Assembly (NCBI GenBank): GCA_016748015.1
Contig: JAAOMT010000745.1
Coordinates: forward strand, 4,881-59,441
Origin: Geosiphon pyriformis
Lineage: Eukaryota > Glomeromycota > Glomeromycetes > Archaeosporales > Geosiphonaceae
DNA: 54,561 bases
Reading direction: 5' to 3'
Below, one piece after another: positions 895-54,561 of this stretch (within the stretch, counting starts at the first letter, position 1; every line of letters begins with the position of its first letter). Made by a program: the position numbers and the translations under genes. The notes beneath the pieces were generated by a model. It saw only the letters and a list, made by a program, of their open reading frames with translations. It had not been told where the DNA came from and searched no databases.

Positions 895-3800
895 TAGATT
901 ACTTTGAATCTAAAGTTTTTCCAAAAAAAAAGGTAAAATTTATGTCAGATTTAATAAAGTTTATAAAAGATATAGCTTTAGACAAAATTTTCAGCTGTGA
1001 AATAATCATTCAAATTGATATTAAAATAAAGTCTGAAAATTGAAAATTCTAGTTTTTACATTTATAATATTATTATAATAAGCCAATTTAGTGAATTATA
1101 CATTAACTTTTAAAATGATATATATATTGAAATTGTATATTATATTAAAATCAAATTTCACTATAGGAATTACAAAAAGAACCATTCAAAGTATACTTTA
1201 CAAAATGATCTTATCAAATTATAATTATAATTATTATTTTTTTCCTTATTTTTGTTTACAAACCACAAAGCACAATTTTTTATACAATAAGTATAATTTA
1301 ATGTAAATTATTTAAAAGTAATAAAAAAAAAGCACTATTTTTTTGAAGTGTTTAAATTAGTGTTTTTAACCAGTCAAAACTTAATTTGTTAATTACTTAA
1401 AAAGTTTTAACCAGTATTATTCATAAAGTAATAGAGAAAAAATATATAGCATAAATAACCAATTAAATATTAGAAGTTACTAGATAATATAATATCAGAA
1501 ATTCTAGTAATAACTCAAAAAAAGTGTAAAAATCACTAAAATATTTAGGAATTTTAGATTATAAAGATTTATATGTATATATAGCAGTAATATTAAAAGC
1601 AGAAAAAATATCTTTTTATCATTAAAATTTGATTTCTATTAAATATTTTCAGCAATTAAAAAATTTAGTACTTAAAATAAAGTCTATTTTAATAAATTAC
1701 AGTTATTATTCAATATTCAATTTCAAATTTCATGAACTTATATTTATTTTGTTGAAATTACTTATTATTAATACTTTGTTTATTAAAACAACTAATACTG
1801 ATAACACTTATTTAAAGAATTTAACAGCACTAAAACAATAGTTTTGATTATAGTTATTAACAAAATATTAATTCTTTATTTATTTTTATTTTTATTTTTT
1901 ATTTTTATTTTGTTTTATTTTGTTTTATTATATATAATAATTAATTACAAAAAACATTAAGATTACAATATTAAAAATTGTCTGGTAAAAAATATTGAAT
2001 AAACATAAAATTAACTTGTTAAATATTAAATTACATTTCAAAAAAGTAATAAACACCAAAATAAATTGGTTAATATGTCAAAAAAATCAAACACTAAATA
2101 TTATCAATTATTACAATTTAATTTTTGTTTATTATATAAATAACTTAATTATTAAATCTTCAAATTTATCAAAACTTTTAAAATTATTTACCAAACTACA
2201 ATATTAACTTATAAGCCAATAAATTATAATTAAATAATACTTATTATATTTAAAAATAGATTTAAAATTATTTATTATAATTTTTATATAAAATTTTTTT
2301 TATATTAATAATAACTTAAAAAAATATTTACAAAAAAAACAACCAGTTTTTAAAATTTTTAAACTATAAACTATATATGAAAAATAAAACACTAATATAA
2401 AAATAAATATTGTATACAAAAAATTACTTTTTATTATAATCACTAGTTTTTATGTTATTAATTAATTTAAATTTATAAAAAATAAAATAAAATAAGAATT
2501 AATATTAGTTAAATTTAGTATTGGTTTAAATACAATAAAAATAAAGAAATTTAAATATATAGTATTATTAAATATTTACAATTTTACTTTTTTAATACTT
2601 TATTATCTTATGTTTATTATTTTGCAAAGTATATTTGATTATAAAAAAACAAAACTATTTTACCTAAAAACTAAAACCACTTCAATAATAATTATAGAAC
2701 AATATTAAGTCTTTTTTTGTAATAAAACAAAAAAATATTAATTTTTAATTGCTTAAATTTATTATAAATAATTTATAGTTATTTGTATTATTAGAAAACA
2801 TAAAATTTAAAACATTTTATTATTTATTATATCTTAATTATAAACTATTTTATAATATAATAATAAAATTACTTATTTGATAAAATATTAAATTTACAAG
2901 ATAATAACTAGTTAAATTACTTAATAATATTATAGAAAAAGCCAGTTTTATTATCAATTATTGAACTGTTTTTACTGATTATATATTGGTATTATAATTT
3001 ATTAGTTAACCAAAAATTTTTAATTATATAAAATCTTATTTACAATTAAAGAAATACTATATAATTATTTAAAAAAATATTGTCATAAAACTTTTATATA
3101 TATTTAATAAAAAGACAATTAATTTGTATATTAAAATTATTCACAGAGCTATAAACATTAATACAAAATTTTTAAAGTATTTCAAGATATAAATATTAAA
3201 TTTATTTCTTGTTTTACATATACTATTTACCTTACAATTTCGAATAGTTTAAATAATTGTTTTAATATTAAAAAAATTTTTTATTTGAATAAAGCTCATA
3301 ATTTATTTTTTATTTATTATAATTAATATTAGGCTCATTTTTTTAAATTAAAGAGCTTTAAATTTAACAAAAGAATTTTTGTACCAATCTAAGATGTTAC
3401 CACTTAATAAAGCTTAATTTTAAAAGTTTTGAAAAAACTTATTTATTTGAAACATTTAATTAAGACATTGTTTAAAGCAATACAATGTAAAAATAATTGA
3501 CAAATTTATCAAAATAGTAATAAATTAACTACTTTATTTTTGATTTTAAATAAATAAAATAAGTTGAAAAGCTTATCTATCTATTATGTTTATTTGAAAA
3601 AACAATAAAATTTTTAAGCAGCAGTACATATTTTACTTTATTAAAAATATATTCAACAATTAAAAAACTTTTTGTTCATCTTTAACATGTTTTCCTCTTA
3701 TACATTAATAAATTAACAATTTAAGTTTGTAATAAAATTCTTGAATTTATAGAATTACAATAGAAAGATTCAAAAAGATTAGTACTTTTAACTTCTTTAT

Positions 3801-3927
3801 TAGATTTAAGATTTAAATTAATAGCTTTTATATCAAAAAAAAGTTATTTTATTAAAAAATTTTTATTTAAATAATTATCAAATCTATAAAAAAAAACATA
3901 AATTATTTTGTTGTTGTTTTTTAATCC
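895..3927 (+). repeat. AT-rich repeat, left copy of a 2.49 kb inverted pair
   Basis: Bases 1438-3927 are the reverse complement of 52070-54561 at roughly 95 percent identity by eye over the stretches I compared. The right copy runs off the window, so the element may start further left, perhaps near 895 where composition changes. The inner boundary is sharp: both copies end in TTAATCC after a (GTT)n/T-rich run, then diverge. Differences between copies are mostly C/T or G/A. The block has almost no CpG. Two short frames (1629-1841 and 1995-2207) are partly preserved in the right copy but interrupted there, so they probably come from a dead element protein. I cannot name its class, and no terminal inverted repeats or target duplications could be confirmed. 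Confidence 0.85.
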
Positions 3928-4016
3928 GTTTTTCATCTGAGCTCACATTTTCCGACCATTTTCTTTAAAAATATGGGGGAAATATCCTACTTCTTAATTT
4001 ATTTTGAAATAAATCT

Positions 4017-5083
4017 TCATAAACCTCTTAACCTGTGGTTGATATGATCAGCCCATTGACAAATACTAGAGCAATTTTCCAAAATCCATTTTGGAATTTC
4101 AACCCGTTGCAGATCTTTGAAGTCTGCCTTCAATAAAGGAGCAATCATTTTCTCATTAATATTCCAACAAGAGTGGAATAGCAAACTTTCAAGTTTGTGA
4201 CAACATGCTAAATCCGACAATTCGGGGCATCCTTTAAAGTCTGTAGAGATAAATTCAAGACTAAGAAGAGTCTCAGCTTGACTTGGAAGTGCTTCAATTA
4301 CGTGTGAAGCAAACCCATTCATATTTACCACGGATAGATGTTCTAAACCTTTTTGTGATTTTATGAAAGTTGCTAAATTCTTGGTAGTTTCTTCAATACG
4401 AGTCTGATTTATGTCAAAAATCCAAATTTCAAAATCTTTCTGGATATACAAGGAGGATATTAGCTTGGGGAATTTTAATGGTCATGGCACAAAAAAAATG
4501 TCAAAGATTCACATACCACTTTATTACACAATTCTGACAAACTCAACAAAATATCGTTTTTTGGAAATTCCGCGTTAATTTTCAGATACGTAATAGAAGA
4601 AATTAACCCTGCATATCGTGAATCCACCCAAAACCCTAGGTTTCTACTTCCAAATTGATGCACTGTTTTCCGAATGGTAAATGAGCGAAGCATGACATTA
4701 CGTGAGATTAAAATGTCAAAGAAGCTTTCAGCTAAAGATTTGAGTCTATTTCCAGGATTGTTGATAAGCAAAGAATTATAAAAGATTCTGAATGTATCTA
4801 TCATATCTCCAAGGTCAACTGTTGTGATAAATGATAGATAGTCAAATGAGGTGGTTGATCTTTTTGAGATGAGTAAACTATTAGTCGCATGAATTTCGAT
4901 CATAGAAGAGAGAGTTTTCATCAATCTCCATCGTTTTTGAATGGTCCCTACAAAAGGGTTTGCCCAAATTAAGGGAACCGCAATAACACACCATTCTCGA
5001 TTGACTAAAGCACATGAACTTAAATCTTTATGTTTTAAATCTTTAAAAATAGTTGGAAGAACATCTGAGACGAGTTGGGGCAT
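4017..5083 (-). CDS. F-box protein with leucine-rich C-terminal region
   Basis: Two exons, 5083-4517 and 4439-4017, give 329 residues. The 77 nt intron (4440-4516) has donor GTATGT, a CTAAT branch-like site and acceptor CAG; splicing removes the stop that would otherwise end the first frame. Residues about 1-45 form an F-box-like motif (MPQLVSDVLPTIFKDL, then SSCALVNREWCVIAVPLIW). The rest carries spaced leucines and short repeats (LEHLSVVNMNGF, LLSLEFIS, LESLLFHSCWNI) like a degenerate leucine-rich repeat domain. Such proteins usually bind Skp1 through the F-box and select substrates for an SCF ubiquitin ligase with the C-terminal part. That role is inferred from family. Large F-box families of this shape are typical of arbuscular mycorrhizal fungi. 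The gene sits between two AT-rich blocks. Confidence 0.8.
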
Positions 5084-13679: not shown

Positions 13680-15718
13680 CTAGATTTTATGCTTCAACAG
13701 CTTTAAAACCATTGAGCGTTCAAAGTACAGGTTTCTTCTTGAGAAGAGATAAAACCCCTTTTTTTGGTTCATTGAAAACAGCACAAATTCGCGAGTTCGC
13801 TCAAGTATGATCATGCATGAAAATGTAATCCGTAGAAGGAGTGCATTTTATTGATAAATCAATTTTAAATTTTGGCTAGATTTCGGAAATTAAAGAAACA
13901 AAGGAATCAGTCACAGATATTCCAAATGCTTCGATCAACAGTAATAACAAAAAATTATTGGTTCACTGGAGAGATAAAAAGAGAATAAGTAAATTGTAAG
14001 TATGTTTATATTATTTGTTGTGAAATTTGTTCGGGTGTGAATAAACCTGAATATTTATTGGACATAGTCACGCGTTCTGGCTAAGGGATCATTGCCAATG
14101 TTTCCAATGTTATCATTCTCTCACCAAACAGCGATTAGTGGATACTTTTAAGGTTTGATTTTTTAATTTTCTGGATTTTTCTCTGACAACTTGTGATTTG
14201 AAAAATGTCTCAAAAAACTTCAAGATTCCTACGGATATTGCACCTTCATCTGTAAGTTCGAATGCAGTTGGTGTAACTATATCATGTAAGAGTTTTCAAT
14301 TGAAACTATCAGTTAGTTGCTTAAATGCAAAGACACATTTCTCATCAATCGTGTGTTGTTTTTTCCAGGGAACGATGGTCATTCGAGTTTATTTGAGTGG
14401 AATTGGCTACGACTTCATTCGTATGATCCACCGTTATTGTTCGATAATCAAAAGCCCAAGTAAGAAAGTTTGCATTGCAGTATGAGTTATATTTCAAGAA
14501 ATTTCGAAAGGATACTAATAAATTTTGATTTTTGAAATTGGTGTGAACTGATATTAGGAGCCAGAAGGTTACATGGAACGCTGAAGAAATAAAAACTTTC
14601 TTCCCGGTGGTTCAATATGAACATGTAAAGTTTTTCCTTTTGTTGTTCTGAAATTTTTTGAGTTATTATATTAATAATATTTCATTTTCTTGGTATTTGA
14701 CCAGGTGATGAAAACTCGGGATGGATTAGCGGAATGGCTTCATAACATAGTAAGATTTTTATGAGTTAATATCAAAAATATGTACTAGCATAATATTAAT
14801 CGCAAAAATCGGATTTTAGGATAAATATGGTTTATCCTTTGTTGATGGCGTGCCACCCAACCCAAAAGATACAGAAGATTTAGCAAAAAGGATCTGTTTC
14901 ATTCGTGAAACACATTATGGTTTGTTAAATGTTACATTTTGCTACTAAATATTTTTATATTTTGCAATTCTTTTTATTGTATTTGATCTTTGAATAATTC
15001 TTATATGCCATGTCTTTCCTTATTAAAGGTGGCTTTTGGGATGTCATGCCCAATCTTGAGCATGGCGACACGGCTTACACTACTCTGCCTCTTAAAGCCC
15101 ATACCGATAACACTTATTTCACAGATCCTGCGGGGTGAGTCAAATAAAAGCAGAAACTTTTAATTTTGGGCTCAAATCTGACCAAAATAAGTCTAAAATT
15201 CCAGGCTTCAGATGTTCCATTTAATTGAGTTTGAGGGAAAAGGAGGTGAATCGTTGTTTGTAGATGGATTGCATGCCGCGAATCTTCTGAAAAAAACTCA
15301 CCCAGAGGCGTACCATATATTATCAACCATACGAGTTCCGGCCCATTGTGCTGGTGATGAAAATATTCATATTCATCCCACCCCAGGTGGTTTCCCGATT
15401 CTTAATCACAATCCATCTACAAATGAGCTCTATCAGATTCGATACAACAATAACGATCGATCGACAATAAATCATTTGGAACCAGAACAAGTGAATTTAT
15501 TTTATGATGCTTTGCTAAAATGGAACGCATTATTGGAAGATAAGAAAAACGAATTTTGGATTCAGTTGACACCGGGACGTGCCATTATTTTCGATAATTG
15601 GCGTGTTTTGCATGGTCGGGCTGCATTCACAGGGCATCGAAGATTGACAGGGGCATATTTGAATTGGGATGACTATCAAAGTCGGTTAAGATGTACGAAT
15701 CAATTACAGACCAAATAA
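13680..15718 (+). CDS. Trimethyllysine dioxygenase, carnitine biosynthesis
   Basis: Ten exons: 13680-13804, 13880-13995, 14068-14152, 14225-14285, 14369-14459, 14558-14624, 14705-14749, 14820-14919, 15029-15134 and 15205-15718, giving about 436 residues plus a start from an upstream exon. The enzyme is an Fe(II)/2-oxoglutarate oxygenase that hydroxylates N6-trimethyllysine, the first step to carnitine. Order of parts: a basic RFYASTALKPLSV-type mitochondrial targeting stretch; an N-terminal zinc-type domain (FWLRDHCQCFQCYH); a WNDGHSSLFEWNWL repeat; then the catalytic fold. Iron ligands are visible as HTD (in KAHTDNTYF) and the late H of WRVLHGR, with the 2OG-binding Arg in GHRRLTGAYL. FIRETHYGGFWDV matches this family and argues for it over gamma-butyrobetaine hydroxylase, its close relative. 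All introns are 70-109 nt. Two use AAG acceptors (14224, 15028). The exon 1 start is unresolved. Confidence 0.9.
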
Positions 15719-16372: not shown

Positions 16373-17660
16373 TTAAACAAACTTTTTGGGGAAAAACCCA
16401 CATTTTTCTTGGCCATTAGAATCGCTCAAAAATATGGAACCAGCCACTTTGCAATTCGCACAGGTTCGGCTGGGCTTGTATTTCCTTTGATCCTTGCACA
16501 AATGAATTTCCCCGTCTGGTCCAATATTTACCGGACGATGGCGTCCATTTAATTTCAGACTGTAAATCATAATTATATAAGAAAACATGGGAAAAATATT
16601 TTTCTGTTAAAAAAAAAACTACTTACTAAATTCCACAAGCATTACAAAGTAAAGCAATTCCTTGCATATCTCTTCTCCATGCTGGAGTATTTCGCGTGCC
16701 ACAATTTGAACAACGAAAAATTTCACCTTGTTTTGTTTTTGGCTCTTCAGTATTATTAGTGGTAGAGTTCATTGCAAGGCACGAATCATCCCCGTTTATA
16801 CCGCAGGTGGAATGAGTATCGGTAAAATATTTATACCGACGACGTGAACGTTTCGAATCCAAAGAATCAGCATCATCATTTGGAGATTGCTCTTTTCCTT
16901 TTTCAATCTCGGTATCAAAAGGTATCTCGACCATGCTAGTGGTTGTAATTTTTCTTTTTCCATTAGCATGGGGAATTAAAGTTTGATCAGAAAAACTCGT
17001 GTCACTATCTGTTTGTAATTTAGGATTAGAATGAGTCACGGATAATATATGATGTTGTGAGGGTATCTCTTTAAAAGTGAATTGTTCCTTAGCACAAATA
17101 TGACACCACTGATCAGGACAATCAACCTCGGAACAAATATCTGGGGAAGCAAAAATTAAATTGCTTTTAGGAATATTTACTAAAGGGTAAGGACAAGTAC
17201 TCAAAGTGGTTTGTCTTGAAACAGAAGGAATTGGTGGGGGTAGTCGCCAAGACTCTTTGCTTACAAACTTTTCATTGATATTTTGCCGACCCTTTCCTTT
17301 ATCTTGGGTTGAAACGTCTTTGAAATCAAAATCAGGAACGATTGGTGAGAAGATAGGGAATAAGGAATCAACCAGATTTTTAATCTTCGGTTCAATGACC
17401 AAGGGAGGCGAAACTTCAGAATTTAAAGAGAACGAGTGTATTTTGGTTTCGCATGTGATTTTGTGAGCTGATTCGATTTTATATTGAATCTCGGAAGAAT
17501 CTTCCAGGACGTAGTTGGCTTTTTGATCAATTCGATTTTCAGTCAAAATTGCGAGATCTTCTGCATCTTTTCGGTCGCGTAAATCCAATGATTTAAATAA
17601 TGAAATAGGTGTAGCTTGTATTTGGGATTGATTCGTGTTACTAGACTCAGATTTGTTCAT
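16373..17660 (-). CDS. GATA-type zinc-finger transcription factor
   Basis: Two exons, 17660-16627 and 16559-16373, make 406 residues. The 67 nt intron (16560-16626; donor GTAAGT, acceptor ACAG) splits the finger exactly inside the Tyr codon after CNACGI. The joined finger is C-X2-C-X18-C-X2-C (CSNC, then TPAWRRDMQGIALLCNAC, then IYLKLNGRHRP), the longer-loop fungal class, and predicts binding to GATA sites in the nucleus. The long N-terminal half is polar and low-complexity, with a basic KRSRRRYKY nuclear-signal-like stretch before the finger and an isolated Cys cluster (CPDQWCHIC). After the finger come more cysteines (CKDQRKY, CANCKV), which may be a decayed second zinc-binding unit. The regulated pathway cannot be told from sequence. 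Confidence 0.9.
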
Positions 17661-19275: not shown

Positions 19276-21432
19276 ATGATGTCACAAAATGAAGAAACTA
19301 TTATCACGATTAATATACCAGCTGAGAACCTTGAATTTATCACTGGCCAGAACGAAGGAAAGCTTCGATGGGTTGAGTAAGTATTAAGCTTATAGCGTGA
19401 CTAATCGAAATTTTAATCTCAAGTCATAAAAATATCTGTCTTAAATTTCATCTGAATAGACAGCTTACTGGAACTATCATTCAATTATCCAATGATAAAA
19501 CTCAGGCGAAAATCAGAGGAACGCTTGCCATGGAAGCAAGAAAACTCTTTGTTTATCTCTACCAACCAGATACAACAAAAAAACAAGTAAAACCACATAA
19601 GTCATTAAATGGGTCCTATAGGGATTTTCAAAGTGAAAGACATTTTTCAAGGCCATCAAACTCCAAATTCTGGCCCAATATTGGCTTCACGATAATCGAA
19701 ACGACTTCTCAAGACCTTTCCAAAGTGAAAATCGGGTTTTTCAAGTATTCAGGCCAAGATTGTAATCCCCATTCTTATGGAAAAGATCTATATTATCCCC
19801 AAAGAATAAACGAAGAGATTGAAAATCGCGATTTCGAAATTGAGTTCGAAAAAGAAATTAACAACAATTTATGCAGCTTACACTGGAGTGAAAAAAATGA
19901 TCAGGACATAAATAATGCTCACAAAATTTTATTTGGGAAATCTTTGAATAAATTTAACTCATCCTCGAAAAATCCTCAAGAAAAAATTTGGAAGGCGAGT
20001 GGCCTTATTTTAAGTAAAGAATTTTTATTTTGAAAATTGAAACCAATTGCAATGAATTCTTTTAACCCCTTAATGTTTTATCAGGTAAGGATAAGACTTC
20101 AGATACTGGTCCATTTGATCAAAATAACCAAGGAAAACCGATTGATATCGCTTTAGAAGAACAATTGAAAATATCGGATTATCGAAACAGCCCCAAAGAT
20201 AACTCTGCCATATTCAATCAATCTAATCTCATGGAAGAAGCATATTTGAAGGGAAAAATAGCCTATAGCAATGACAAGTACCATTGGAGTGATAAGAACA
20301 TAAAGCAACTTCACGAAACCCCTGTTTCTCGTGCAACATCCTGGAACCAGGAGACGCAAACAAGACCGTTCGAGTATACCATGTATGTCCCAAATCGTGA
20401 ATTTCCATATGGGACATCAATTCATCTAGGAGACTGTATAAAAAAAATTTCGACGGTGGCCTTACAATGTTATCCTTTGGATCAAAAGGGAAAAGAAGTT
20501 CATTTAACGATATTCTTTGGGTTGGAGTTATTTTTTAACTTTCAAGAAATCCCGAGAATTCCGCTTACTATTCAACAGTGGTGTGATATTAAACGTGAAG
20601 GAGACGCACTGAAAACTTCATTTCAACACAATGCAATCCTTATCGATGAGCAAAGATTGCTTGATTTAGGTCTTGGATTTAAAAAAAAATGGCAATCACA
20701 AGAAAAGTGGAACACAATTGTATTCTTTAGGGAAAATGGCGTTGATAAAAAAATGAAATTGGTGTGGGACTCAAAAGAACGTAAGCGTTTCAAGTCATAG
20801 CAATTTTTGAGATTGCAACTTTTAAATTAGATTTACTTCTTTTGTAAAGGAATATGGAAGATAAAAAAATTATTTAAAGAAGTTCACCGAGTTGTCGTGA
20901 TGGATGTATTGTCAGGAGCAAATGGACCTGATTTTCGTTTCAGTACCAAAACCCAAGTCAGGATTCCCATTGAGAATCGCTTGCGAGAAATAATTTCTGA
21001 GATTCAACCTGCCATGAAAACTCGTTACGAAGCCCAAAAAGATATGGAGTTTCGTCCTATTGATTTTGAAAATAGGCTTAGAGTGAACCGTAGCCAACAG
21101 ATGATATCGAAAAAACGCTTCATGTAACTCAGTTTTCATTCCTTTGTATATTTAGTGTTTTCCATTAAAGGCTAACTTTTCTGTCTTTGTCAAACAGCAA
21201 TAGGAAATATAGAATCAATATTGTTTTGATGCGACAAGATTCGGGCAATAATGTTGTAAATACCATAAACGAAGTTAGGTTGAAGCATATGGATTGGGTT
21301 GAATTACTCGATCAAGATGACCTAATTTATTTGGCGATGAGGGATAAAACCAAACAAACAAGGCAAATGTTAGATGACACTATCCAAGAGACTATCGGAT
21401 ATACGAGAGAAATTGTTAAAAAGATGGAATGA
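19276..21432 (+). CDS. KH-like domain protein with large uncharacterised C-terminal region
   Basis: Five exons, 19276-19376, 19460-20013, 20085-20780, 20850-21123 and 21198-21432, give 619 residues with all phases matching. The introns are 69-83 nt. The N-terminus (about residues 8-69) has a KH-type pattern: ITINIPAENLEFITG, a G-rich loop (GQNEGKLRWVE), TGTIIQL, then IRGTLAMEARKLF. The loop is GxxxG rather than the usual GxxG, so nucleic-acid binding may be altered. The rest (residues about 80-619) is mixed alpha/beta with no motif I can name. It resembles fungal proteins annotated only as domains of unknown function behind a KH fold. RNA binding is a family-based inference. Adjacent ATGs at 19276 and 19279 are both possible starts. 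The 20849 acceptor is AAG. Confidence 0.8.
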
Positions 21433-29614: not shown

Positions 29615-30202
29615 TCAATTAGAATTCGGAATTCTTTTCCAAAAATCCACCAACACTTGCCAACTCAAAAATTCCAAAGTGCCTGGTGGACAAAATTTAC
29701 AAATCTCCACGCCCAACTGCGAACGCATAATGTATCGTTCGTTATCACTGACCCATTGTCCAGTTTCAATTTTTAAAACCATTGCAGCTGCATCAATTAT
29801 CAAATCATATTTAGGATATCCATTATAAAATACTTTCAGATCATGTAGTCGTGGAATTTCGGATTGGGATGAAAAGCTTCGTGAATGAAATGGTTTTTGT
29901 CTTGGAGTTGATTGATTTGAATAACAGGATGATATAGACGAGGTAGATGACGTAGATGAGAAAGAGCTTTTTGAATTTTTTGAATGACGTGTAATAGGAT
30001 GACTGGGATTTACAACAGATTTTGAAAAAGAAAGAGGTGGTATCAGCGGCAATGGTGATTGAAAGTAATCTTCCTCATATTTTCTCTGAAGGTTTTCAAA
30101 AGAGCCATTTTTAATGAAATGTTTAGTAGAGCGTTTTAGGTTTCGAATACTTTTACGCATCGAGGAAGAACGAGAATTATCACTCGCTGGCCAACTTTCC
30201 AT
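29615..30202 (-). CDS. Unrecognised protein: Ser-rich N-terminus plus a core shared with the 51.2 kb gene
   Basis: A single-exon 195-residue frame starting at the first ATG (30202). Residues 1-115 are basic and serine-rich (many S, K, R; a run of FSSTSSTSSISS), as in a disordered region. From about residue 121 a compact core begins (LKVFYNGYPKYDLIIDAA) and ends with GTLEFLSWQVLVDFW. The core aligns without gaps over 60 residues to the small protein at 51187-51489, sharing L..FY..YP..D...DA, I, G T..F..WQ.L. No known family is recognised. The Ser-rich part could be a phosphorylation target; that is only a guess. The upstream region holds a long pyrimidine/purine repeat 50-120 nt before the start. 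Confidence 0.75.
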   Translation of the reverse strand: MESWPASDNSRSSSMRKSIRNLKRSTKHFIKNGSFENLQRKYEEDYFQSPLPLIPPLSFSKSVVNPSHPITRHSKNSKSSFSSTSSTSSISSCYSNQSTPRQKPFHSRSFSSQSEIPRLHDLKVFYNGYPKYDLIIDAAAMVLKIETGQWVSDNERYIMRSQLGVEICKFCPPGTLEFLSWQVLVDFWKRIPNSN

Positions 30203-30247: not shown

Positions 30248-30323
30248 AGGAAAGGAAAGGAAAGGAAAGGAAAGGAAAGGAAAGGAAAGGAAAGAAAAGG
30301 AAAGGAAAGAAAAGGAAAGGAAA
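30248..30323. repeat. (GGAAA)n microsatellite next to a gene start
   Basis: About 15 near-perfect GGAAA units on the plus strand. On the strand of the 29615-30202 gene it reads as (TTTCC)n in the leader or promoter. The 61-codon plus-strand frame here is simply a translation of the repeat. Confidence 0.95.
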
Positions 30324-36612: not shown

Positions 36613-37308
36613 TCATACAATTTTAAATGTTTGGCATATCCTTATTCGTGTCGTTTTTGCTTGTTGTAAATTTAAAAGGCAAACGTTGTATCTAAAAATC
36701 TTTAAGAAGCAAGCATTCAGGTGGGTTATTAAAGATTCATGTAATTGTCGTAAGGCTTGGTACTGCAAAAATAAAATTTTCTTACCTAATTTTTGTTCAA
36801 TAGGATTCATTATTCTGCTAAGAGCCATTGGATCCGGATGAAATTTAGGGGAAATTTTTTGTTTGGTGCAATAAGGAAAGTTATATTCTTGAGTTCTCAA
36901 GAGTTTTGAGCGATCAATAGTTGAATTGCGCTTTCTGGGTGAAAGATGCTGTTTTCTAATCGGCTTAGGATTCCACTTGGCCCAAGTCAGGCTCGCTTCC
37001 GATGAAAGATGTTCATATGTTGCTCTCACCTGTTCACCTTGACTCTTCCAAGAGACAGAAGCCATTCGACTAACTATTGGCATTGGCCAATTAACCCCAA
37101 ATCTCTGCAAACTCTCAAGATATTTGATACGAAAAAGAATAAAAGCGTTGGGAGCTCTTTCTTTTCGCTTTGTGTTTTTGAACAATCCTTCAAAGTCAAA
37201 TGATGGAGGATATTCGACAACAAAATTTACTGGCTCTTCGGCTGTAGCATTTGACTTTGAGTTTGAATTTTCGAAAATAAAATATAGGCGTTTTGATGGC
37301 TCACCCAT
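36613..37308 (-). CDS. MATA-type HMG-box protein
   Basis: A 231-residue frame beginning MGEPSKRLYFIFENS. Residues about 50-112 form an HMG box of the fungal mating-type/Ste11 kind: KERAPNAFILFRIKYLESL, then MPIVSRMASVSWKS and VRATYEHLSSEASLTW. Predicted role: sequence-specific DNA binding and bending in the nucleus. Many copies of this class occur in arbuscular mycorrhizal fungi, where a mating role is unproven. The C-terminus after IEQK may be intron read-through: GTAAGA follows immediately, and composition becomes less coding-like (LLNLQQAKTTRIRI). The real protein may end soon after residue 170 or continue in another exon that I could not place. Confidence 0.8.
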   Translation of the reverse strand: MGEPSKRLYFIFENSNSKSNATAEEPVNFVVEYPPSFDFEGLFKNTKRKERAPNAFILFRIKYLESLQRFGVNWPMPIVSRMASVSWKSQGEQVRATYEHLSSEASLTWAKWNPKPIRKQHLSPRKRNSTIDRSKLLRTQEYNFPYCTKQKISPKFHPDPMALSRIMNPIEQKLGKKILFLQYQALRQLHESLITHLNACFLKIFRYNVCLLNLQQAKTTRIRICQTFKIV

Positions 37309-41531: not shown

Positions 41532-43300
41532 ATGAAAAGCTTATCCCTTTCTAACGGGCTTATAAACTCATCGGCAACAACATTTCTATTGCATAAATTC
41601 CAATCCGTAATATTCACAAAGCTCCGTCTAAAAACTTTGAACACTTTGAAAAGGATAAAAAATCAAAATATATCGTTTATATTAACAATAATTTGTGCAT
41701 TAACTTTATTGTATGGTGAAGTGATTGTTTATTACTTCACATTTTGGAAATGTAATTGGCCATCATTAAAAGAATGGGTAACCTATTTATAATAATAATT
41801 TGATTTTATTTTAGATATAGAAGAGACTTTCAGGGCTAAAAACTTTGCCCTAAATTTTTTAAGGATTTATCATTAGGCACGCCATATCACATGATTATAA
41901 TTGCTGACCAACGTATAAGTGAAAGTATTTCATATAGACAAAAAGGAATACTCCAAAGAGTTACTGAAATTCATAAAAACACACACTTACGAAAAAATTG
42001 GCGAATTTTACAAGATAGATTTCCTTCTGATGCTATAATGATATTGGGTAATTTAATGGATCGGGGATCAGAATTGGAGTCTCAGGAGTAAGTGGAATTT
42101 TTGTGATTTGTTCTCTTTTGATTTTCCAATTTTGCTCGACATCAGACTTAAGTATTTATCTAATCTATTCTATCAAGATGGGAAGATGAATTACACAGAT
42201 ACAATTTAATATTCAGTCCACGATATTCAAATCAAAGTATACCAGTCTTTTATTTAGCTGGAAATTATGATATTGGAGTTGGAAAAAAAGTTGACAGAAA
42301 GGCCTATTTGCGATTTAGTAATGTTTTAGGACCAACCAATTTCGTTCACACACTTGGTAATCATACCATTGTAGGATTGGATACGATAACTTTAAGTGGT
42401 GAAGATGATTCGCTCAAAAAAGAAGGACTTGAATTACTAGATCAATTGGAAAATGGTATGCTTTTTCGAGATGTCAGTTTTAAAAAAAAATTAAACCTTA
42501 TTTCCAATATTTTTTTCAACTTTTTTTTGTATTCAGATATTAATATATACACCCAAAACAGAATCCTATTTACCCATCTTCCTCTACACCACCGGCCATC
42601 CAACATCAATTGCAAAGGCATTAAAGACCAATACCAAAAAAACCCAATAGATGAGAATATTTCAAATATAATTTTGGATAAGTTACAGCCGAATTTGATT
42701 ATAAGTGGATATGGTCATGATATTTGTGAGATAGAAGATGGAAAAAGCCAAAATGCCGCCGAAATTCGTGTGAATAGTTTTAATTTTGCAATGGTATTAT
42801 ACTTTTATATTTTTTGATTATTCCAAATTATATATATGTTAATGGTCATTAATTTGTAAATTCAGGGAGTTTCAAAACCAGGATTTATTCTTTTAAGTCT
42901 ATACAATCCATATTCATTACTCAATATATCCACAACTCCCACTTACGCATACTCTTTATGCCCCTTACCAAACCAAGCTCAAATATTATTTTCCTACATA
43001 TTCCTCTTAATAATCTCCATCCTACTCATTCTACGAAGCAGCCATACCAAATTTTGTCAAACCAAGTCATTCCATAACTTAAGTATCTATAATTTATTGC
43101 CGATTCACGGAATGGAAGCGAAAAAATTCGAAAAAGGATCAAAACCATTTTTCATTACCTGGATTTATTGGAAGGTTATCCTGCTAGACTTGACAAAAAT
43201 TTTAATTTTTGTACTGGGAACTTATCTCGCTTGCATGGGACTATTTGTATGGGAGAATTGGGATATCGTTACAAGATATTTTAAAAGGAAGGGTTTATGA
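41532..43300 (+). CDS. Cdc1/Ted1/PGAP5-type metallophosphoesterase, probably catalytically impaired
   Basis: Five exons, 41532-41777, 41864-42087, 42178-42455, 42537-42793 and 42866-43300, give 479 residues, with every phase matching. Topology fits the family: an N-terminal membrane span (about residues 50-72), a phosphoesterase domain (about 92-330), then two C-terminal spans (ILFSYIFLLIISILLIL; WKVILLDLTKILIFVLG). The C-terminus KRKGL fits a KxKxx ER-retrieval signal. Relatives remove ethanolamine phosphate from GPI anchors in the ER/Golgi. Family landmarks are clear (MIIIADQR, LRKNWRILQDRFPSDAI, GNYDIG, FTHLPL, CPLPNQ). Yet metal-ligand motifs deviate: GD is GN (145), GNH is GNY (187) and GH is GY (308). 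D97, D148, N186, H263 and H310 remain. Introns 1 and 2 use AAG acceptors. The gene converges with the BTB gene. Confidence 0.88.
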
Positions 43301-51186: not shown

Positions 51187-51489
51187 CTATACAGGGCAAA
51201 AAATTGGTTGCAAATTAATGATATCACTCAAAATGTTTAACAATGCTTGCCATCCATAAAACCCTGGTGTTCCGCCATCATAATATCTCAATTTTTCTTG
51301 GTTTATCTTTTTCAACAAATTATTATAAGTTGATTTTAAAATTGGTTCTTTAGCTTGGATTTGGCATCTTAATTCACAAGCATCAGCGAGAACATCACTT
51401 TGTGGATAATTTTGATAGAAAATTCGAAGACTTTGAATGGGAAGCATTTTTTGAATCAGATAACGAGTAGTATCAGGTTGTGAGGACAT
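51187..51489 (-). CDS. Small unrecognised protein, homologue of the 29.6 kb gene
   Basis: A 100-residue single-exon frame beginning MSSQPDTTRYLIQKM. From residue 20 it reads LRIFYQNYPQSDVLADACEL and later GGTPGFYGWQALLNILSDII. This aligns without gaps for 60 residues to the C-terminal core of the 195-residue protein at 29615-30202. It lacks that protein's Ser-rich N-terminal half. The core is probably a small alpha-helical fold with conserved aromatic residues (FY, YP, F, W). The function is unknown. Confidence 0.7.
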   Translation of the reverse strand: MSSQPDTTRYLIQKMLPIQSLRIFYQNYPQSDVLADACELRCQIQAKEPILKSTYNNLLKKINQEKLRYYDGGTPGFYGWQALLNILSDIINLQPIFCPV

Positions 51490-52069
51490 TTTTTGAAATT
51501 AAATTGCTTTGAACTGAGTTTGGGATTGGTAAAAAAAATTTATGATAAAATTTTTAGAGATTTTGGTGATTCAGGGAAAATGAAAAGGAGATTTTCAAAA
51601 ACTTTTTAAATATTTTAGAGAATATAAAAATAGATGTAAGGAATTGTCGCTTAAAATTTATTTTCGAGCCTTAATTCAAATTCATTGTGCAAATGAAGAA
51701 ACATCTTTAAATTCTATTAGAAATATAAGGGATTTTCGAATGTTGGAAACAACTTAAAGACTTATTTTTCTAAAGGATTGAACGATAATTGATAATTGCA
51801 GGAGAATATCAATTTTGAAATCAGCCTCTGGTCCATAATTTTTGTGGAGAGATGACTTGATCGATCGATCGATCGATCAATCTTTACTTTTTATGTACGA
51901 AAGGTATTATAGTTACTGCTTTTGTATATATTTGAAATTAGAAAATATATAAAGCCTCAATTTGCCAAATCTTTGAGTAAGTAATAAATATGGAGCAGAA
52001 AAAGTAAAAAAAAGGATTGTTTAAGAGGAATTTTCAAAATCTCTTGAATATCAGTGTTTTTTTTTTAAT
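51490..52069. other. Upstream region of the 51.2 kb gene
   Basis: Promoter-side sequence with no clear TATA box; contains a GATC palindrome. No gene is supported. Confidence 0.4.
51857..51880. repeat. Perfect 24 bp (GATC)n palindrome
   Basis: TTGATCGATCGATCGATC continuing to AA at 51880 is its own reverse complement. It is a tetranucleotide repeat with several Sau3A-type sites. Confidence 0.9.
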
Positions 52070-54561
52070 GGATTAAAAAACAACAACAAAATAATTTATG
52101 TTTTTTTTTATAGATTTGATAATTATTTAAATAAAAAATTTTTAATAAAATAAATTTTTTTGATATAAAAGCTAATAATTAAAATCTTAAATCTAATAAA
52201 GAAGTTAAAAGTACTTATTTTTTGAATCTTTCTATTGTAATTCTATAAATTCAAGAATTGTATTACAAACTTGTTAAATTGTTAATTTATTAATGTATAA
52301 GAAGAAAACATGTTAAAAATAAATAAAAAGTTCTTTAATTGTTGAATATATTGTTAATAGAGTAAAATATGTACTGCTGCTTAAAAATTTTTTTGTTTTT
52401 TCAAATAAACATAATAGATAGATAAGCTTTTCAACTTATTTTATTTATTTAAAATCAAAAATAAAGTAGTTAATTTATTACTATTTTGATAAATTTGTCA
52501 ATTATTTTTACATTGTATTGCTTTAAACAATGCCTTAATTAAATATTTCAAATTAATAAGTTTTTTCAAAACTTTTAAAATTAAGCTTTATTAAGTGGTA
52601 ACATCTTAAATTAGTATAAAAATTCTTTTGTTAGATTTAAAGCTCTTTAATTTAAAAAAATAAGCCTAATATTAATTATAATAAATAAATAAAAAATTAT
52701 AAGCTTTATACAGATAAAAAAATTTTTTAATATTAAACCAATTATTTAAACTATTCGAAATTGTAAGATAAATAGTATATGTAAAACAAGAAATAAATTT
52801 AACATTTATATCTTGAAATACTTTAAAAATTTTGTATTATTGTTTATAGCTCTGTAAATAATTTTATTATACAAATTAATTGTCTTTTTATTAAATATAT
52901 ATAAAAGTTTTATGACAATATTTTTTTAAATAATTATATAGTATTTTTTTAATTGTAAATAAGACTTTATATAATTAAAAATTTTTGGTTAACTAATAAA
53001 TTATAATATCAATATATAATTAGTAAAAACAGTTCAATAATTGATAATAAAACTGGCTTTTTTTATAATATTATTAAGTAATTTAATTAGTTATTATCTT
53101 GTAAATTTAATGTTTTATCAAATAAATAATTTTATTATTATATTATAAAATAGTTTATAATTAAGATATAGTAAATAATAAAATGTTTTAAATTTCATGT
53201 TTTTTAATAATACAAATAACTATAAATTATTTATAATAAATTTAAGCAATTAAAAATTAATATATTTTTGTTTTATTATAAAAAAAGACTTAATATTATT
53301 CTATAATTGTTATTGAAGTGGTTTTAGTTTTTAGGTAAAATAGTTTTGTTTTTTTATAATCAAATATACTTTGCAAAATAATAAACATAAGATAATAAAG
53401 TATTAAAAAAGTAAAATTGTAAATATTTAATAATACTATATATTTAAATTTCTTTATTTTTATTGTATTTAAACCAATTACTAAATTTAACTAATATTAA
53501 TTCTTATTTTATTTTATTTTTTATTAATTAATAACATAAAAACTAGTGATTATAGTAAAAAGTAATTTTTTGTATACAATATTTATTTTTATATTAGTGT
53601 TTTATTTTTTTTATATAGTTTATAGTTTAAAAATTTTGTTTTTTTTTAAATATTTTTTTAAGTTATTATTATTATAAAAAAAATTTCATATAATAATTAT
53701 AATAAATAATTTTGAATCTATTTTTAAATATAATAAGCATTATTTAATTATAATTTATTATTCTAAAAAAATCTTATAATTTATTGGCTTATAAGTAAAT
53801 ATTGTAGTTTGGTAAATAATTTTAAAAGTTTTGATAAATTTGAAAATTTAACTATTAAGTTATTTATATAATAAACAAAAATTAAGTTGTAATAATTGAT
53901 AATATTTAGTGTTTAATTTTATTGACATATTAACCAGTTTATTTTGGTGTTTATTACTTTTTTAATATGTAATTTAATATTTAACAAGTTAATTTTATGT
54001 TTATTCTATATTTTTTACCAGACAATTTTTAATATTGTAATCTTAATATTTTTTGTAATTAATTATTATATATAATAAAACAAAATAAAACAAAACAAAA
54101 ATAAAAAATAAAAATAAATAAAGAATTAATATTTTGTTAATAACTATAATCAAAAACTATTGTTTTAATGCTGTTAGATTCTTTAAATAGGTGTTATCAG
54201 TATTAATTGTTTTAATAAACTAAGTATTAATAATAAGTAATTTCAACAAAATAAATATAAGTTCATGAAATTTGAAATTGAATATTGAATAATAACTGTA
54301 ATTTTATTAGAATAAACTTTATTATAAGTACTAAATTTTTTAATTGCTGAAAATACTTAATAGAAATCAAATTTTAATGATAAAAAAATATTTTTTCTGC
54401 TTTTAATATTACTGCTATATATACACATAAATCTTTGTAATATAAAATTCCTAAATATTTTAGTAATTTTTACACTTTTTCTGAGTTATTACTAGAATTT
54501 CTGATATTATATTATCTACTAACTTCTAATATTTAATTGGTTATTTATTTTATATATTTTT
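52070..54561 (-). repeat. AT-rich repeat, right copy of the 2.49 kb inverted pair
   Basis: The reverse complement matches 1438-3927. The copy starts sharply at GGATTAAAAAAC (52070) and continues to the window end. Over the segments compared, copies differ at about 1 base in 20, mostly as transitions. The length is nearly the same (2492 versus 2490), so indels are few. Both copies lack CpG and their former reading frames are broken. Confidence 0.88.

Follow-up and report, generated by a model that had tools for sequence, protein, structure and literature searches.

A seven-locus family of small proteins with a shared, predicted helical domain in Geosiphon pyriformis

A 54,561-nucleotide stretch of Geosiphon pyriformis DNA (contig JAAOMT010000745.1, positions 4,881 to 59,441 of the forward strand; "the window" hereafter) contained two open reading frames (ORFs) belonging to a paralogous family whose members share a C-terminal core, predicted to be helical. 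P0001, of 195 aa (29615..30202, minus strand, ATG-started open frame), is a long-form member, and P0002, of 100 aa (51187..51489, minus strand, open frame), is a solo and strongly diverged one. That this family, with seven loci in the genome, and its shared helical domain are real is virtually certain, and it looks like a set of ordinary old gene duplicates, mostly local.

Two homologous frames and their relatives in the genome

Both frames were present where a preliminary description of the window had placed them, on the minus strand, which it had omitted; the plus-strand frames at the same coordinates contained many stops. On BLASTP comparison, residues 119–193 of P0001 aligned without gaps to residues 18–92 of P0002 (18 of 75 identical, 36.2 bits; the E value of 2e-08 applies to one single comparison). 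The pair had a Smith-Waterman score of 86; 5000 shuffles averaged 26.8 and did not exceed 56. Its score was also the highest among the 66 pairs of the 12 window ORFs of at least 90 aa, the runner-up scoring 47. The likeness of the two proteins is genuine: with the BLASTP alignment and a score above all 5000 shuffles, the homology proposed earlier was borne out, and a chance likeness was ruled out by BLASTP, the shuffle test and the codon-position pattern given below. The ungapped core of the preliminary description also stood, but its length of 60 residues did not, the core spanning about 75–77; among the residues it had called identical, a lone Y is in fact paired with N, and the identities extend to E, I and N farther down the alignment.

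The 124.7-Mb genome (406 contigs) was searched in six frames, ignoring introns. As a query, the P0001 core detected seven loci with E values from 2e-52 to 0.0015, two on the contig of the window (labelled C127), two on C143 and three on C331; one of the C143 matches read across a terminal stop codon, which is the gene's own stop. Four other protein queries (P0002, the C143 copy at 37.9 kb, a composed consensus and the C331 copy at 358 kb) returned the same seven loci and none further at E 10. A 27-base DNA pattern for GT-x-x-F/Y-x-x-WQ matched six of the seven loci and nothing else, and its reversed control matched nothing. Since these were six-frame, intron-blind searches made without an alignment as query, remoter members may have been missed. 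Five pairs of loci lay less than 100 kb apart, whereas 0.03 would be expected for random places. Thus the expansion in the genome that had been suggested is correct insofar as further copies exist, but it is modest, amounting to seven loci in local clusters.

In each of the 15 pairwise comparisons of the six long-form cores, it was the third codon positions that differed most. Their dN (nonsynonymous divergence) was 0.25–0.49; dS (synonymous divergence) could be estimated in nine of the pairs, at 1.4–2.3, and in the remaining six could not. The nine gave dN/dS of about 0.15–0.35. The codon-position pattern and these ratios indicate that the six long-form cores are under purifying selection and that the duplications are old. 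The tree joined two of the C331 copies, those at 343 and 358 kb, to the copy at 38 kb of C143 (87/94, under the program's star level), and P0002 formed by far the longest branch, its placement being unsure.

Comparison between contigs covered the window, 25–95 kb of C143 and 270–370 kb of C331. With ORFs of at least 60 aa and E 1e-4, the only BLASTP links among these contigs were the family itself, frames lying antisense to its members, and proteins of F-box type. The one addition by blastn was a 192-base match of 77% that joined C143 to C331 at a few kb from family loci.

Layout of the proteins and predicted fold of the core

Six of the seven members had a common layout: a basic N-terminal motif of the RKSIxxLRRxT type, a Ser/Thr-rich linker and a C-terminal core of about 77 residues. 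In P0001 the motif, located by pattern scan, occupied residues 15–26 (30125..30160, minus strand); the linker (29858..30124, minus strand), unalignable across paralogues, was probably disordered, judging from its composition and a FoldIndex-type score of the whole pre-core part; and the core (29618..29857, minus strand), delimited by genome matches, alignment and model, comprised 80 residues with four predicted helices. The motif read MRKSIRNLKRST in P0001 and IRKSIQHLRRQT, VKKSIQNFRRTT, VRKSLQLLRRNT, FRNTLRTIRKRT and YRTTVARLRKKS in the other long forms. It has hydrophobic residues at i, i+4 and i+7 with basic ones between, and ends with an R/K-R/K-x-S/T site, which we take to be a consensus of the PKA/AGC-kinase type. 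When the three clusters (461 ORFs of at least 60 aa) were scanned with the pattern [hydrophobic][RK]x[ST][ILV]xx[LFI][RK][RK]x[ST], itself derived from these six sequences, six ORFs matched, and these were precisely the long forms.

The long forms open with a polar stretch, three of them with M-x-x-WP-[TA]-[SN], and the linker varied widely in length and sequence. Their pre-core part carried a net charge of +8 to +16 and 24–40% Ser plus Thr, and the core a net charge of -8 to +1. The ungapped core, F-Y..YP...A...G...WQ...I, was present in all seven members, with nine invariant columns (P, F, Y, P, A, G, W, Q and I). P0002, whose core lay at 51208..51444 (minus strand; alignment and model), had just 15 residues before it, without basic motif or Ser/Thr-rich linker, and is a member by its core alone. 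Because six of seven members have one layout, basic motif included, and P0002 is a lone diverged copy without the motif, the proposed shuffling of the core onto different N-termini was not supported.

The P0001 core and P0002 were modelled with AlphaFold2 from the same two-row alignment of the window proteins, so the two runs were not independent. The best model of the P0001 core had helices at 8–14, 21–35, 42–56 and 65–79 (predicted local distance difference test, pLDDT, 85; predicted template modelling score, pTM, 0.75), and that of P0002 at 5–15, 19–27, 31–45, 52–66 and 75–93 (pLDDT 72, pTM 0.61), the helix at 5–15 being an extra one of low confidence and the other four lying in the core. 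Between the P0002 and P0001 models, the starts of the last three core helices were all shifted by the same 10 residues, as required by an alignment without gaps. Matching helices in the two predictions agree with a discrete core domain, as had been proposed. The most conserved candidates for its surface in the models lay in the last helix: W, Q, D, W and R, followed by I-P.

The core had no family match in Pfam, NCBIfam or PDB sequences, in accordance with the earlier statement that it resembled no recognised family. Matches to Pfam ANAPC1 (E 0.22), to cNMP_binding (E 0.12) and DUF4844 (E 0.21) in one member each, and to PDB sequences (best E 0.074 for the profile and 1.4 for P0002) were read as chance. 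None of the titles and abstract openings listed in literature searches described the family. Among prokaryote genomes, 17 stretches fitted the single pattern used, of which none was confirmed at E 1e-3.

Proposed function and competing explanations

The best explanation as a whole joins a family of old duplicates with a role as regulatory adaptors, and we put it slightly short of an even chance; its adaptor and phospho-switch part, a mechanism which we infer, is tentative and somewhat unlikely when taken separately. The proteins would be intracellular, since no hydrophobic leader is visible. A long form would consist of a basic, probably helical motif with a kinase-type site, a disordered linker and a helical core, and the core would use a conserved helix, W-Q-x-[LF]-[VL]-D-x-W-x-R-I-P, to bind a partner protein. 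The basic motif may bind membrane, nucleic acid or the import machinery until phosphorylation lowers its charge, and, being phosphorylatable, would set the location of the protein. P0002 would retain nothing but the binding of the partner, and might either be a competitor of the long forms or be in decay. A bolder version strikes us as improbable: an undescribed helical domain confined to one early-diverging fungal group and controlled by a kinase switch, in which a basic amphipathic motif would tether the protein until phosphorylated, the W-Q...D-x-W-x-R-I-P face would bind one partner and the solo copy would be a natural dominant competitor.

Several points weigh against the adaptor reading and the evidence beneath it. 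The other four of the five P0001 core models had pLDDT of only 57–61; the five P0002 models ranged from 56 to 72, with residues 19–23, the start of the first core helix, below 50; and a single two-row alignment underlies both predictions. A composed 34-aa N-terminus query matched just three of the six long forms, those with M-x-x-WP-[TA]-[SN], so the N-termini differ outside the short motif. The selection test took the six long forms and left P0002 out. A match to R-R-x-S/T within a basic stretch is a weak predictor, and the basic motif could instead be a nuclear-localisation or nucleic-acid-binding element.

Foremost among the alternatives, P0002 might be a decaying copy without function of its own, only the six long forms mattering, which we consider rather unlikely. 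Its long branch fits decay, as do differing residues at 13 of the 22 core columns on which all six long forms agree, a dispersed repeat about 0.4–0.6 kb away, and the outcome of a regular-expression search for an exon with the N-terminal motif, which found none within 3 kb upstream on the same strand. However, P0002 has kept an open frame of 100 codons from ATG to stop in A+T-rich DNA, the nine family-wide invariant positions, and predicted helices which agree with those of P0001.

The core might also be a remote, shortened BAG-like domain, the long forms then being Hsp70 co-chaperones whose last three helices would attach to the ATPase domain of Hsp70 and accelerate the exchange of nucleotide. 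Fold matches of the models were at noise level, with BAG domains recurrent among them; a BAG-like core appears improbable. The best Foldseek match, with the P0001 core model, had an E value of 1.4, with none at 0.001. Unrelated chains scored alike (alanyl-tRNA synthetase C-Ala, 6.7, and Tsi6, 6.1, with P0001; a Borrelia protein, 7.4, with P0002), and such Z scores are common for helical bundles according to the comparison tool. None of the seven members had a Pfam BAG match, and a search of the genome with the BAG model gave three other places and none of the family loci. Compared profile to profile with two BAG proteins from the same genome, the core reached a probability of 0.4% and a score of 12.5, where 100 column shuffles had a mean of 9.9 and a maximum of 18.

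The family might instead consist of secreted effectors or other host-directed small proteins of a plant-associated fungus, which would fit its small, unannotated members with their Ser-rich, fast-diverging linkers and its clustered paralogues. Nevertheless, a hydrophobic leader was seen in none of the seven members, whose starts were polar or charged (judged by eye only), and the core lacked a conserved cysteine pair, having a single column with Cys in five of seven; we consider such a role very improbable.

Descent of the domain from a genome-resident mobile element or virus, to which the dispersed repeat near P0002, with copies at both window ends, might point, can hardly be credited: there were just seven, diverged loci, the compared stretches shared no flanking DNA between contigs except the 192-base match, a phage search with P0001 gave no match, and the P0001 core model had no viral fold match at E 0.001. 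The sole viral-contig match was a 20-residue pattern inside an unrelated protein and was rejected.

Old duplicates with a possible adaptor role thus remain the preferred reading. With nine residues of its core invariant, apparently no introns and no curated domain, the family qualifies for a first functional test and possibly for a domain entry of its own, and the discrete core with these invariant residues, together with the conserved phospho-type motif, makes it tractable. Small uncharacterised paralogous families are numerous; the present one is one of many, and nothing in it overturns a known principle.

Surroundings of the genes and relation to known domains

An (AGGAA)15 microsatellite, identified from the sequence (30248..30323, no strand), lay upstream of P0001, some 45 bases before its start codon, and could be within the promoter or 5' leader of this gene. 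Near both window ends was a 2.5-kb inverted repeat, 94% identical (1438–3930 and 52067–54561); at least 90 genome matches of 65–100% identity (40 of 1999 candidates scored) mark it as a dispersed repeat. A piece of 373 bases at window positions 51919–52291, some 2.3 kb short of the contig end, matched C331:253216–253587 at 99.5%. In C331 this match directly abuts a 20-N run and lies at a distance of 27 kb from a member of the family, and other pieces of both C127 ends matched the same 6 kb of C331 at 88–97%. C127 may fit into or beside this gap, which is only a hint because the flanks are dispersed repeats.

Elsewhere in the window, a weak HMG-box protein was encoded at 36613–37308 (minus strand; E 0.00036, below the Pfam cut-off). 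HMG-box matches were numerous in the genome, at least 129 at E 0.01 (150 of 153 candidates scored). No clustering of the present family with HMG-box genes was seen among the matches listed, of which C331 had one, at 41 kb, and C127 and C143 none. A GATA zinc-finger protein was found at 16626–17660 (minus strand); its finger ended at the ORF end with 28 of 36 profile positions, which suggests an intron within the finger. Recorded jointly at 15212–15718 (plus), 4475–5083 (minus) and 42164–42811 (plus) were ORFs of the TauD/TfdA-type dioxygenase and F-box-like kinds and one for a calcineurin-like phosphoesterase, which narrowly missed the cut-off. Two adjacent ORFs of 167 and 189 aa (19530–20800, plus strand), possibly parts of one gene, had no Pfam match at E 0.01.

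Among known domains, BAG (PF02179; AtBAG1/2/4 and SODD/BAG4) was the most recurrent fold match of both models and, as is predicted for the core, is a small antiparallel helical bundle. The core differs from it in a predicted extra short first helix and in the lack of any sequence link by hmmscan, genome family search or profile-profile comparison, the fold matches lying within helical-bundle noise. MIT domains (spastin 7s7j/3eab and ULK3 4wzx) gave Z scores below those of BAG, and the members had no Pfam MIT match. In kind, the family is comparable to the taxon-restricted, uncharacterised paralogous families of fungi, which are alike in having few members, clustered duplicates, disordered linkers and no curated domain, and no specific feature sets it apart from them.
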